Positions 891 through 32,258 of a DNA stretch of 32,943 bases are shown one piece after another. This DNA comes from Candidatus Epulonipiscium fishelsonii (GTDB lineage: Bacteria > Bacillota > Clostridia > Lachnospirales > Cellulosilyticaceae), in the NCBI GenBank assembly GCA_001983475.1, contig LJHD01000283.1:1-32943 (forward strand), in the 5' to 3' direction. The notes below the pieces were generated by a model. It saw nothing but the letters and a program-made list of their open reading frames with translations, did not search any database and had not been told where the DNA came from. The position numbers were made by a program, and so were the translations under genes. Each line of letters begins with the position of its first letter. Position 1 is the first letter of the stretch.

Positions 891-2603
891 CTAATATGTC
901 ATATCTCCATATTTTCTAAACCGTTCATATCTCTTATTAACAATTTCGTCATCTGATAACATATCCAGTTCTTGAATTTTTTCAAGTAAATAATTTTTTA
1001 AAATCATAGCTGCAAGATCAGGGTCTTTATGTGCCCCACCTGAAGGTTCTTTTATAATATCATCGATGATACCAAATTTTAAAAGATCTGTTGGTGTTAT
1101 CTTCATAATCTTAGAAGCCTTTTCAGCTAACTTACTGTCTTTCCATAAAATGCTTGCAAACCCTTCGGGCGATAAAATTGAATAAGTAGTATTTTGTTGC
1201 ATAAATACAAAGTCTGCAACACCTAAAGCCAATGCACCACCACTTCCACCTTCACCAATAATTCCTGCTATAATTGGTGTTTTTAGTCTAGACATTTCCA
1301 TAAGATTTCTAGCAATTGCCTCACCTTGACCACGCTCTTCAGCTCCAAGCCCACAATATGCCCCAGGAGTATCAATAAAACAAATAATTGGCCTATGAAA
1401 TTTTTCCGCTTGTTTCATTAATCTAAAAGATTTTCTATATCCTTCTGGATGTGGCATACCAAAGTTATATTCAATATTTTCTTTTGAAGTCTTTCCTTTA
1501 TTTTGAGCAATCACAGTTACAACATTACCTTCAAATTTTCCAATTCCACCAATAATAGCCCTGTCATCTGCAAAAACTCTATCTCCATGTAGCTCTATAA
1601 ATTCATCAAATATATGCTCAATATAAAATTTACTTCTAGGTCTATCTATTTGTCTTGCAATATTAATTTTTTCCCAAGGTGAAATTTCTTTTTCTGGTTC
1701 AATAAGATAGTTCACTTCATTAAAATGGTTTAATTTAGCACTAGGTTTAGCATGCCATTTTAGTAACAGGCCTAAGATTTTTCCAAAATCCTTTCTTTCA
1801 ACAATTTTATCAATCATTCCATGTTCCAATAAAAATTCTGCTTTTTGAAATCCATTAGGAAGCTTTTGGCCTATTGTTTGTTCAATAACACGTGGGCCAG
1901 CAAAGCCAATAAGAGCCTGTGGTTCTGATAAGATTATATCACCAAGCATTGCAAAGCTTGCTGTAACCCCTCCAGTAGTTGGATGAGTTAATACACTGAT
2001 ATATAAAAGTCCTGCATCATCATGTTTAGCTAAAGCTGCACTAGTTTTTGCCATTTGCATAAGGGAAAATATCCCTTCTTGCATTCTTGCTCCGCCTGAT
2101 GCACAAAAAATAATAACAGGAAGTTTGTTTTCTGTTGCATATTCAATTGCACGAGTAATTTTTTCACCAACTACTTCTCCCATGCTCCCCATCATAAATC
2201 TGGAATCCATAACAGCAATTATACAATCATTATTGTTTATTTTTGCCATACCAGTTAAAACTGCTTCTTTTTCACTAGTCCTAACCATATAGCTTTCAAG
2301 TTTAAGGCCATAATCTTTAAAATTCAAAGGATTTTTACTTTCTAAATCTTTATCAAATTCAATAAAACTATCTTTATCCGCAATGTTATTTATCCGCATT
2401 CTTGCAGAAATAGGAAAATATCCCTCACAACTGGTACAAACACCAATTGTATCATCTAAATCTTTTATATAGATGCTTTTTTTGCAATGAGGACATTTTG
2501 CATACATTCCAGCAGGAATTTCAACTTTCTTTTGAGAGTCTTCTGATTGAACATTATCAACTTTGCCATATTTTTTTCTGTTCATTAAACTTTGAAACAT
2601 CAT
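891..2603 (-). CDS. accDA: Acetyl-CoA carboxylase carboxyltransferase, fused beta (AccD) and alpha (AccA)
   Basis: 570 aa ORF. N-terminal zinc ribbon CPHCKKS...CTSCEGY plus AccD core, then SPWEKINIARQIDRPRS and AccA core FGMPHPEGYRKSFRLMKQAEKF. Confidence 0.95.
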   Translation of the reverse strand: MMFQSLMNRKKYGKVDNVQSEDSQKKVEIPAGMYAKCPHCKKSIYIKDLDDTIGVCTSCEGYFPISARMRINNIADKDSFIEFDKDLESKNPLNFKDYGLKLESYMVRTSEKEAVLTGMAKINNNDCIIAVMDSRFMMGSMGEVVGEKITRAIEYATENKLPVIIFCASGGARMQEGIFSLMQMAKTSAALAKHDDAGLLYISVLTHPTTGGVTASFAMLGDIILSEPQALIGFAGPRVIEQTIGQKLPNGFQKAEFLLEHGMIDKIVERKDFGKILGLLLKWHAKPSAKLNHFNEVNYLIEPEKEISPWEKINIARQIDRPRSKFYIEHIFDEFIELHGDRVFADDRAIIGGIGKFEGNVVTVIAQNKGKTSKENIEYNFGMPHPEGYRKSFRLMKQAEKFHRPIICFIDTPGAYCGLGAEERGQGEAIARNLMEMSRLKTPIIAGIIGEGGSGGALALGVADFVFMQQNTTYSILSPEGFASILWKDSKLAEKASKIMKITPTDLLKFGIIDDIIKEPSGGAHKDPDLAAMILKNYLLEKIQELDMLSDDEIVNKRYERFRKYGDMTY

Positions 2604-3976
2604 TCATCACCTCCAACACCTAATATTTGATCAAGATTGGTTTCAATATAAGTTGTATCAAATTTACCTGTTTCAAAAGCAGTAGTATAAAGTAAATCTA
2701 ATTGAAATTCAATATTATTGCTAATACCTTCAACTACAGTTTCGCTTAAAGCACGCTTCATAATAGCAATAGCTTCTTGTCTATCTTCTCCCCAAGTAAT
2801 AATTTTTGCAATCATAGAATCATATGTTGGAGGAATTACATACCCTGCATAAATACTTGACTCAATTCTAACACCTCGCCCACCTGGCAGGTATAGCTCT
2901 GTTATTTTTCCAGCTGCTGGTCTAAAATTCAAAAGAGGATTTTCAGCATTAATTCTACATTCAATCGCATGCCCTCTTAATTTTATATCATCTTGGGTAA
3001 ACTTTAGTTTTTCTCCAAAAGCAATTTTTATCTGTTCTTTTATAAGGTCAATATTTGATACCATTTCGGTAACAGGATGCTCAACTTGAATTCTAGTATT
3101 CATCTCTATAAAGTAGTGGTTATTATCCTTATCAATAATAAACTCTATTGTGCCCGCATTTTCATAACTAACCGCTTTAGCTGCTAAAATGGCATGTTCA
3201 CCCATTATTTTGCGCTTTTCTTCACTCATATTTGGCGATGGTGATTCTTCAATTAATTTTTGATGTCTTCTTTGCATAGTGCAATCACGCTCACCAATAT
3301 GGACTATATTCCCAAACTTGTCTCCTAAAATTTGAAATTCAATATGTCTGGGAGTTTGTATGTATTTTTCTATATACATACTTCCGTCTCCAAAAGCAGT
3401 CAATGCCTCTTGGCTTGCAGTTAAAAAAGCATTTTTCAGCTCGGCTTCCTCCCAAACAAGCCTCATTCCGCGGCCCCCCCCACCCGCAACTGCTTTAATG
3501 ATTATAGGATAACCTATCTTCTTTACTACATGTCTGGCTCCTCTTAAATCCTTAACTACGCCATCAGAGCCAGGAACTACAGGAACTCCCGCTTTAACCA
3601 TCATCTCTCTTGCTTTTGCCTTGTCCCCCATTTTTCTAATCATTCTTGAAGTTGGTCCAATAAACTTAATTTGACAGTCCTCACAAATTCCAGCAAACTT
3701 TGCACTTTCTGAAAGAAATCCAAACCCAGGGTGAATTGCATCTGCTTTTGTACCAATAGCAGCACTTATAATGTTTTCAATATTTAAATAGCTATCCTTT
3801 GGCAAAGCTTTACCAATGCAAATTGCTTCATCTGCAAAATTTACATGTAAGGAATCTTTGTCCATCTGAGAATATATTGCAACAGTTTGTATATCCATTT
3901 CTTTGCAAGCTCGTATAATTCTTAGGGCAATTTCTCCTCTGTTTGCAACAAGAATTTTATTAAACATTAGCATCAC
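2600..3976 (-). CDS. accC: Acetyl-CoA carboxylase biotin carboxylase subunit
   Basis: [26 protein letters not shown]-grasp [23 protein letters not shown]. Confidence 0.97.
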
Positions 3977-8643: not shown

Positions 8644-8705
8644 ATAGGATAAGAACCCGACGCCTTACTACATTACTGTAGTAGGTTTCCTTGAACTCTC
8701 CCCCA

Positions 8706-8857: not shown

Positions 8858-10360
8858 TCATGTATTTTCTTTCTCATGCCATTCACAAACTTCTATCTTT
8901 AATTTTGTGCTTGGGTGCATTTCTATGTCTTTCCAGTTACTACCTGTTTTATTTCTTGCAAAACCTTCATCATAATAATAGCATATTTCAGGTCCATTTT
9001 TAGTCATATACTTTATGCCTAATTTCCCATCTATTGTATATTTATCAAATATTTTCCTTATAGATGTTTTATACTTATGGCCCATAGTTTTGACAAAACT
9101 ATATTTCATAATATAATTATAAGAATTTAGACTATTCACATTCATAGCTAATCTATAATAATTATATAAACTTCTGATTTCTGCATTATAGGTTTTTATT
9201 ATTTCCAAATCGTCATTATTTATTAAATAAGTTCTATGAGTTGGTTCCCATATTTCTTTTCCTTTTTTATTAATAACATTAACAGCGCCATGTTCTTTTA
9301 ATTTTGTTATCCAAGCTTCTTTTGGCATATACACTTTTGTTTGCCCATAAGTTCTTTTTTTTACCGTATCATTTTGTTTTACTCTTTTTATTTCTTGAGA
9401 CCTTACAGTAATTTCATAACCTAAGAATTTAGCCCTATCTTTGCTACTGGTTATTAAAGTTTTTTCCTCTGACAATTCTAGTTCAAGTTTTTCTTTCAAG
9501 AAGTTTTTTATATTCTCTTTTATTTTTTTCGTATCCTCTTTGTTCCCTATTACACCTATTATAAAGGTATCAGCATATCTAACATAGTATAATCTTTTAA
9601 ATTCTGTATCCATAGAATAGTTAATTTTAGTTCTTTCTTTACCCTCTTCAAAGCTTAATCTAACGCCATCCACATATTTATCAAATTCATTTAAGTATAT
9701 GTTTGATAAAATAGGACTTATTATTCCTCCTTGAGGTATTCCAGAGTAAGTGTTATTATACTTCCATTCTTCTAAATATCCTGCTCTAAGAAATTTCCAA
9801 ATCAAATTTATAAATTTTTCATCTTTAATTTTTTTTCTTAAAATATCTATTAATCTATGATGATTAATGTTATCAAAGAAACATTTAATGTCTCCTTTTA
9901 TATACCATTGAGTACCTTTTTGTTTACTTATTTGGTCTATAGCTGTATGACAACTTCTTTTTGGTCTATAACCATGAGAATTTACTGAAAAATTATTTTC
10001 ATATATACTTTCTAGTATACTTCTTATTATTTCTTGAACTATTTTATCATCTATTGACGGTATTCCTAGTAATATTTTCTTTCCATTCTTTTTTGGAATA
10101 TAAACTCCTTGAGCGGGATACGGTTTGTAACTCTCATCTTTAATTTCATTGATTAATTTATCCACTCGCTCTTTCATTCTGTCAATAGAATCTGTATCAC
10201 TTATCATATTTTCTTTAGAACTTAAATTTTTATAAGCAATATAATAAAATTCTTCATTATAGAGATTTCTATATAGCCTTTTAAATTGACAATTTTCCTT
10301 TAATGCTACTTCAGCTAGACTGTTTAAAACAATCATTGGATTTCTCATGTGCACTCGCAC
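8858..10360 (-). CDS. Group II intron encoded RT/maturase with altered catalytic motif (YADT)
   Basis: LGIPSIDDK, GDIKCFFDNINHH, SGIPQGGIISPILSNIYLNEFD, YVRYADTF, X domain THRTYLINNDDLEII...YNYYRLA; truncated at CEWHEKENT*. Confidence 0.95.
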   Translation of the reverse strand: MRVHMRNPMIVLNSLAEVALKENCQFKRLYRNLYNEEFYYIAYKNLSSKENMISDTDSIDRMKERVDKLINEIKDESYKPYPAQGVYIPKKNGKKILLGIPSIDDKIVQEIIRSILESIYENNFSVNSHGYRPKRSCHTAIDQISKQKGTQWYIKGDIKCFFDNINHHRLIDILRKKIKDEKFINLIWKFLRAGYLEEWKYNNTYSGIPQGGIISPILSNIYLNEFDKYVDGVRLSFEEGKERTKINYSMDTEFKRLYYVRYADTFIIGVIGNKEDTKKIKENIKNFLKEKLELELSEEKTLITSSKDRAKFLGYEITVRSQEIKRVKQNDTVKKRTYGQTKVYMPKEAWITKLKEHGAVNVINKKGKEIWEPTHRTYLINNDDLEIIKTYNAEIRSLYNYYRLAMNVNSLNSYNYIMKYSFVKTMGHKYKTSIRKIFDKYTIDGKLGIKYMTKNGPEICYYYDEGFARNKTGSNWKDIEMHPSTKLKIEVCEWHEKENT

Positions 10361-10655: not shown

Positions 10656-11000
10656 ACTTATACATATAATCCTGTAAAGCTATTGTAGCTTACTTTAAGA
10701 TACATATCGTTTCACTAGCTTTCGATATGGCAATCGGTCGTACTTCTCGATTTATTCTTCACGCAATCCAGCATTTATCCTCGTTTATACTTCTTACTTC
10801 GGCTCTCAGTCTTAACTTTAGCTATTTAGTTAACTTGAGCCTTTATATAACCATGCTACACTCTCCCATTTTCCTTTCGGTCAGGGATAAGGTTATTAGT
10901 AATAGGAGTATTGATTTAGACCTTTCTCCTAGTGTATTGCCATCTACACAATTAACTATAATCCTCGATAAGTTATAACAAGCTTATCTTACGGACGCAC

Positions 11001-30980: not shown

Positions 30981-32258
30981 CATATTGCGTTTATATTCTT
31001 CAACTCCTGGTTGATCAAATGGGTTTACTCTTAGAAGATATCCACTTATACCACAAGCTTTTTCAAAGAAATAAACTAATTTTCCAAAAGTAAATGCATC
31101 TAGTTGTTCTATATTTATTACGATATTTGGTACCCCACCATCAACATGAGCTAATAAAGTTCCTTCAAAGGCTTTTTTATTTACAAAGTCCATTGTTTTT
31201 CCAGCAAGATAATTTAATCCATCTAAATCATTTTCTGCTGCTTCAAGAGTACGTTCGAATTTGGGTTTTTTAACATTTAAAATTGTTTCAAATATAAAAC
31301 GTCCACCATCTTGAATATATTGTCCAATTGAATGTAAATCTGTTGAAAAATTGGCTGAAGCTGGGAAAATTCCTTTTTTATCTTTTCCTTCACTTTCCGC
31401 ATAAAGTTGTTTCCACCATTCTGCGAAATATTGCAAACAAGGTTCATAGTTAACTATGATTTCAGTATTTTTGTTTTTAGCTAATAGTATATTTCTTATG
31501 ATAGCATATTTATAAGCTGGATTTTCACAAACATCGTCTGTACCATATTCTGTACGACCTTCAGCTGCACCTGCCATTAACTCATCAATGTTAATTCCTG
31601 CAGCTGCAATTGGTAAAAGACCAACAGCTGTAAGAACAGAGAAACGACCACCAACATCATCAGGAATAATAAAAGTTTCATATCCTTCATTTTTTGCCAT
31701 AGTTAATAAAGCACCTCTTGCTTTATCAGTAGTAGCAAATATACGATTTTTTGCTTCTTCTTTACCATATTTGTCTTCAAGATATTTTTTAAACACTCTA
31801 AAAGCAATAGCTGGCTCAGTAGTAGTTCCTGATTTTGAAATTACATTTACACTTATATCTTTGCCTTTACATACATCTAATAGGTTTTCCATATAAGTGC
31901 TTGAAATATTGTTTCCAACAAAATATATTTCTGGTGTTTTTCTTTGCTCCTTTGTCAAGGAATTATAAAATTGATGTGTTAAAGCTTCTATACAAGCTCT
32001 TGCTCCAAGGTATGATCCACCTATTCCTATAACAATCAGCACATCACTGTTTTGTTGTATTTTTTCAGCTGCTTTTTTTATTCTATAAAACTCTTCTTTG
32101 TCATAATTTACTGGTAAATCAATCCATCCCAAGAAGTCTGAACCTGCACCTGTTTTTTCATTTAACATTTGATGTGCTAACTTTACTGAAGGTATGATAT
32201 TTTGGATCTCTTTGCAACCAACACCTGCATTTGAAAAATCAATTCCTATATTGCTCAT
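30981..32258 (-). CDS. pgi: Glucose-6-phosphate isomerase, exon 1
   Basis: [12 protein letters not shown]...[17 protein letters not shown]...[14 protein letters not shown]...GVEEYKRNM, then the intron boundary; start refined to 32258 after AGGTGAGG. Confidence 0.96.

Follow-up and report, generated by a model that had tools for sequence, protein, structure and literature searches.

Does a group II intron whose reverse transcriptase (RT) has lost a catalytic residue remain a mobile element, or can it persist as an intron that only splices? The question is raised by an interrupted fatty-acid gene, fabK, in Candidatus Epulonipiscium fishelsonii (GenBank assembly GCA_001983475.1, contig LJHD01000283.1; the 32,943-nt stretch analysed, positions 1 to 32,943, is referred to here as the window). 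The interrupting element (intron 1, Table 1) has the domain V, GTGCG 5' end and AY 3' end of a group IIA (ML-class) intron and encodes an LtrA-like RT with a domain X; its excision joins GEL to TTM and yields a 313-aa FabK. In a genome of the same genus (G001), fabK is uninterrupted, with 92% protein identity and the exact empty site. The synonymous divergence (dS) of fabK between the two genomes is 0.41, and the pattern fits either a gain in the lineage of the window or a loss in G001.

Translation of the intron ORF, which includes ...LYYVRYADTFIIG..., gave YADT where YADD is expected, with the codons TAT GCT GAT ACC located at exactly 9577..9566 of the reverse strand. The first-pass annotation, which had reported this replacement of the second catalytic Asp alongside intact GDIKCFFDN, SGIPQGG and X/thumb regions, agrees with the translation on each point: SGIPQGG is unaltered, both remaining catalytic Asp residues (D157 and D264) are retained, and the protein matches Pfam RVT_1 (E 4e-37) and Intron_maturas2 (E 1e-15). 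Translation probably starts at the inner ATG at 10348 (MRNP...), which matches the relatives. The nearest PDB match by sequence is LtrA (5g2x, E 8e-113), and an AF2 model (pLDDT 82) has 8h2h_D, the Ll.LtrB RT, as its top Foldseek match (TMq 0.80); the match to NCBIfam TIGR04416 reaches 264 bits, below the 300-bit cut-off. Two points go beyond this entry of the annotation, namely the state of the endonuclease and a second, more decayed intron (below). The HNH endonuclease (En) domain, usual in the ML class but dispensable in some group II classes, is disrupted, as the ORF ends at CEWHEKENT and an out-of-frame remnant follows. Intron 1 thus has neither the intact YxDD nor the intact HNH of a mobile group II retroelement, and its intron-encoded protein (IEP) is RT-degenerate, with a catalytic RT residue gone and the ORF intact.

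Table 1 Features of the two introns and their host genes in the window (position 1 is its first letter)
Feature	Start	End	Strand	Details
fabK 3' exon	8143	8643	-	
Intron 1, in fabK	8644	11000	-	Group IIA / ML class, 2357 nt; 5' GTGCG at 11000, 3' ...CCTAT at 8644
Domain V of intron 1	8705	8739	-	Rfam RF00029, 56 bits; conserved in all five introns
Out-of-frame HNH (En) remnant	8748	8816	-	RQRKTITLCVECHRKIHNGELD; intact C-terminus of L060 and L061 used for comparison
Intron 1 encoded protein	8858	10360	-	500 aa ORF
Thumb / X (maturase) domain	8951	9358	-	aa 335-470; 18/21 family-invariant columns kept; Pfam Intron_maturas2
YADT for YADD	9566	9577	-	Second Asp D265 to Thr, codon ACC
Motif A	9869	9895	-	GDIKCFFDN, intact (D157)
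EBS1 of intron 1	10650	10655	-	AAGTTC, in hairpin loop; preceding T is delta
IBS1 of intron 1	11001	11006	-	GAACTT, final six bases of fabK 5' exon
fabK 5' exon	11001	11441	-	
pgi 3' exon	28553	28651	-	
Intron 2, in pgi	28652	30980	-	Same clade as intron 1; 2329 nt; between RNM and FALL, near the 3' end of the gene
Domain V of intron 2	28709	28743	-	Rfam RF00029, 58 bits
Intron 2 encoded protein	28992	30383	-	463 aa, without En domain
YANS for YADD	29646	29657	-	In intron 2 protein
EBS1 of intron 2	30648	30653	-	CATATT; pairs with IBS1 AATATG at 30981-30986
pgi 5' exon	30981	32276	-	

The window contains a second such intron, in pgi, and Pgi reaches its normal C-terminus once this intron is removed. 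Motif A of its protein is altered as well (GNIKFYN), marking a decay further advanced than that of intron 1. The pgi intron is absent from the other genomes with readable pgi, including G001 (94% protein identity). A stretch of ~45 nt in another locus (L190, 2913-2957) is 87% identical to the sequence preceding domain V of intron 2.

Three more introns of the intron 1 type were found in kin genomes of Epulopiscium-related gut bacteria, which belong to the same family as the genome of the window. Two of them occupy one thyA site in Epulopiscium sp. Nuni2H_MBin003 and MBin001 (L006/L059 and L007/L112), with the active sites YADN (L059) and YADK, and the third lies in mutS of another genome (L009) and reads YKNK. 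The second Asp is therefore absent from all five members of the group, across four genomes. Removal of the introns restores the frames of FabK, Pgi, ThyA (twice) and MutS, with Pfam as a check of the products. Conservation of domain V and of most of the 5' core extends across the group. In each of the five introns EBS1 sits in a hairpin loop and pairs with IBS1 at 6/6 positions, and delta pairs with base +1 of the 3' exon (T-A in fabK, A-T in the other four). The guides of the two thyA introns (ATCGCT/AGCGAT versus ATTGCA/TGCAAT) have diverged together, two differences in IBS1 being matched by changes in EBS1.

The loss is rare outside this group. Of 80 ML-class loci in a genome-contig scan, two are from Epulopiscium and the other 78 all keep YxDD ([YF]xDD); samples at order, phylum and class level added ~50 further ML loci with YxDD in all but two, L213 and L218. 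The five Epulopiscium-family proteins form one clade (support 100/99), corresponding to one change on the tree, and L213 and L218 fall outside it. Their placement elsewhere implies at least three losses, on a second tree that was a quick build in which the rows of these two proteins are long.

We consider it likely from these sequences that the introns of the clade are splicing-only, kept in place by the host gene's need for the maturase. Intron 1, a group IIA (ML-class) intron, would be fixed in fabK and no longer a retroelement; with the second Asp and the intact endonuclease lost, cDNA synthesis and target-strand cutting would most likely be gone, while the protein, still LtrA-like in fold, would bind and splice its own intron. 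As fabK would be readable only after intron removal, selection would preserve the maturase, and the same scheme would hold for intron 2 in pgi and for the three kin introns, two in thyA and one in mutS. We infer an RT that is inactive, a maturase active in cis and a host dependent on splicing. Two published precedents lend support: in TeI4h, which carries YAGD, mobility was 2.5e-5% versus 3.4% with YADD, about 100,000-fold lower (PMC2882425), and in published work a YAAA variant abolished RT activity while splicing continued. These loss-of-function data cover YAGD and YAAA, variants other than YADT. The proposal of the first-pass annotation that DNA synthesis is abolished or strongly reduced while maturase function may remain is supported, the retained thumb/X region, the restored frame, the EBS1-IBS1 and delta-delta' pairings, the constraint on the thyA proteins (below) and the four kin introns all pointing the same way.

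How far the proteins have decayed was scored on columns with 95% or higher conservation among 61 outgroup proteins. Of the catalytic palm Asp residues, only the second is missing in all five clade proteins, and an intact HNH/En domain is found in none. D157 and D264 survive in intron 1 and L059; further motifs, including RT1 stretches, are lost from intron 2, L112 and L009. Between 17 and 21 of the 21 thumb/X columns are kept across the five proteins. Over the clade, intron length drops from 2357 to 1729 nt and the IEPs from 500 to 380 aa. The annotation had placed intron 1 at an early stage of conversion to a maturase-only protein, which fits the extent of its decay, with D157 and D264 in place, but not its age: the loss of the second Asp is probably old, because its absence is common to the whole clade and the En domain is broken too.

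The codons at the second Asp in the five introns (ACC, AGC, AAT, AAG and AAA) each lie one step from Asn (AAY), and those other than Asn lie two or more steps from Asp, which suggests that an Asp-to-Asn change had occurred in the common ancestor of the clade, giving YADN. The introns are spread over four genes, and relatives have empty fabK and pgi sites; this spread is not easily explained by a dead ancestor. It would fit any of three histories: a YADN element that was still mobile, insertions before the loss with relatives losing their introns, or parallel changes. On one account, possible but unlikely in our estimation, a YADN ancestor using its own RT or an RT in trans spread into fabK, pgi, thyA and mutS, Asn being workable, and drift to Thr, Ser or Lys after fixation later made the introns splicing-only.

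Slightly less probable again is that the RT is still partly active, with Asn (perhaps also Thr) at the second position permitting slow DNA synthesis, by which the lineage spread. The possible YADN ancestry indicated by the codons would suit this account, as would L059, which reads YADN and has all its remaining RT catalytic Asp residues intact, the dispersal over four genes with matching EBS1, and the low-rate movement of wild-type YAGD TeI4h. Against it stand the lack of an intact En domain in every clade member, the loss of further catalytic residues or RT1 in three of the five, and the copy number, as each genome has just one or two divergent copies and no recent expansion. An Rfam domain V search of six genomes found no other IIA/ML domain V, the remaining matches being of other classes. 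These genomes thus offer neither an obvious donor of intact RT nor ORF-less IIA/ML introns as partners. One genome (G000) has 12 domain V matches but four RT matches, and its locus L190 (G000:C290) carries three other-class domain V matches within 1.3 kb (614-1907), possibly nested or tandem introns.

We return to the splicing-only reading, which predicts that the proteins are maintained by selection. In the thyA pair, the IEPs gave dN 0.165, dS about 1.45 and omega about 0.11 (approximate, as dS is near saturation), and the ThyA exons gave dN 0.171; simulated neutral drift of the thyA IEP ORF produced stop codons in every run. By these rates, constraint on the two thyA maturases resembles that on ThyA, and since neither carrier has the second Asp, retention of the protein seems to have continued beyond RT loss. 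Domain X is conserved across the clade, and purifying selection is read from the thyA pair, intron 1 having no close pair. In a ThyA tree the two intron carriers are near each other but apart, with weak support, and the shared thyA intron may reflect either vertical descent or transfer. A second thyA-like copy (G008:C1:909833-910656) was matched as two pieces around residue 148-151.

That the ORF is a decaying pseudogene within a ribozyme that splices unaided is very improbable: domain V and the core are conserved and the IEPs shrink together with the intron, which would suit it, but the five ORFs are intact, the thyA omega is low with a dN resembling that of ThyA, and thumb/X is the most retained part. 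A sequencing or assembly error, for which one could cite the source MAG (76% complete, 316 contigs), was rejected as scarcely credible, since both Asp codons are two or more substitutions away from ACC, which excludes a single base-calling error, the same residue is absent in four related introns on separate contigs and genomes, and the reading frame of the intron 1 protein is intact.

The two RT-defective loci outside the clade are both ML introns. L213 (G866; ORF 1471-2910) reads YADT with an altered motif A and lies in dinB between ESW and VDVT; L218 (G798; ORF 1474-3018, reverse strand) reads YAEE and lies within the Walker A motif of soj/parA, between KGGVG and KTTT. All seven RT-defective introns have long intact ORFs and conserved chromosomal genes as hosts (7/7, versus roughly 17/58 intact introns; Fisher p 5e-4), a comparison in which the 17/58 were assigned mostly by eye, using Pfam on representatives, and the seven introns amount to three origins; we take an association of RT loss with the kind of host gene as suggestive only. 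ML introns bearing YxDD also occur in housekeeping genes, such as those of NAD-dependent DNA ligase (L066) and phosphoglycerate mutase (L178).

Splicing-only introns as a kind are already known, with one or two earlier bacterial cases. A 2015 review describes the persistence of non-mobile group II introns in bacteria as rare and names O.i.I2 of Oceanobacillus iheyensis as the sole known bacterial intron with an RT-degenerate IEP (PMC4424553). Like members of the clade, O.i.I2 (ML class, in radC) encodes an IEP lacking YADD and other motifs, with the ORF intact and the host gene interrupted (PMC4424553); it is a single intron, compared here by description only, whereas we describe five related introns in four genes and two separate cases. 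In TeI4h of Thermosynechococcus elongatus, too, one YADD Asp is replaced, and the intron lies in a needed tRNA gene (PMC2882425), but there the first Asp is altered rather than the second. The IEP of TeI4h is part of a proliferating set that includes ORF-less introns; introns of that sort were not seen here. The plant MatK protein and its chloroplast trnK intron share with intron 1 the IIA class, an essential host gene and a kept domain X with RT motifs lost (PMC4424553); MatK is organellar and serves several introns, whereas the intron 1 protein keeps most RT motifs and is probably self-acting. Ll.LtrB and LtrA share class, fold, EBS1, delta-delta' and X-domain layout with intron 1 but differ in mobility and in the YADD and intact HNH domain of LtrA. 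A literature search, which was not exhaustive, found no paper on Epulopiscium group II introns, and a bacterial clade of RT-degenerate introns at graded stages of decay appears to be new.

These findings would make the five introns in four housekeeping genes, together with the two independent Clostridia cases, a bacterial parallel to organelle introns. The clade allows the order of loss to be studied, with the second Asp and the endonuclease going first, other RT motifs later and domain X last, and its compact proteins of 380-500 aa make maturase-only function testable.
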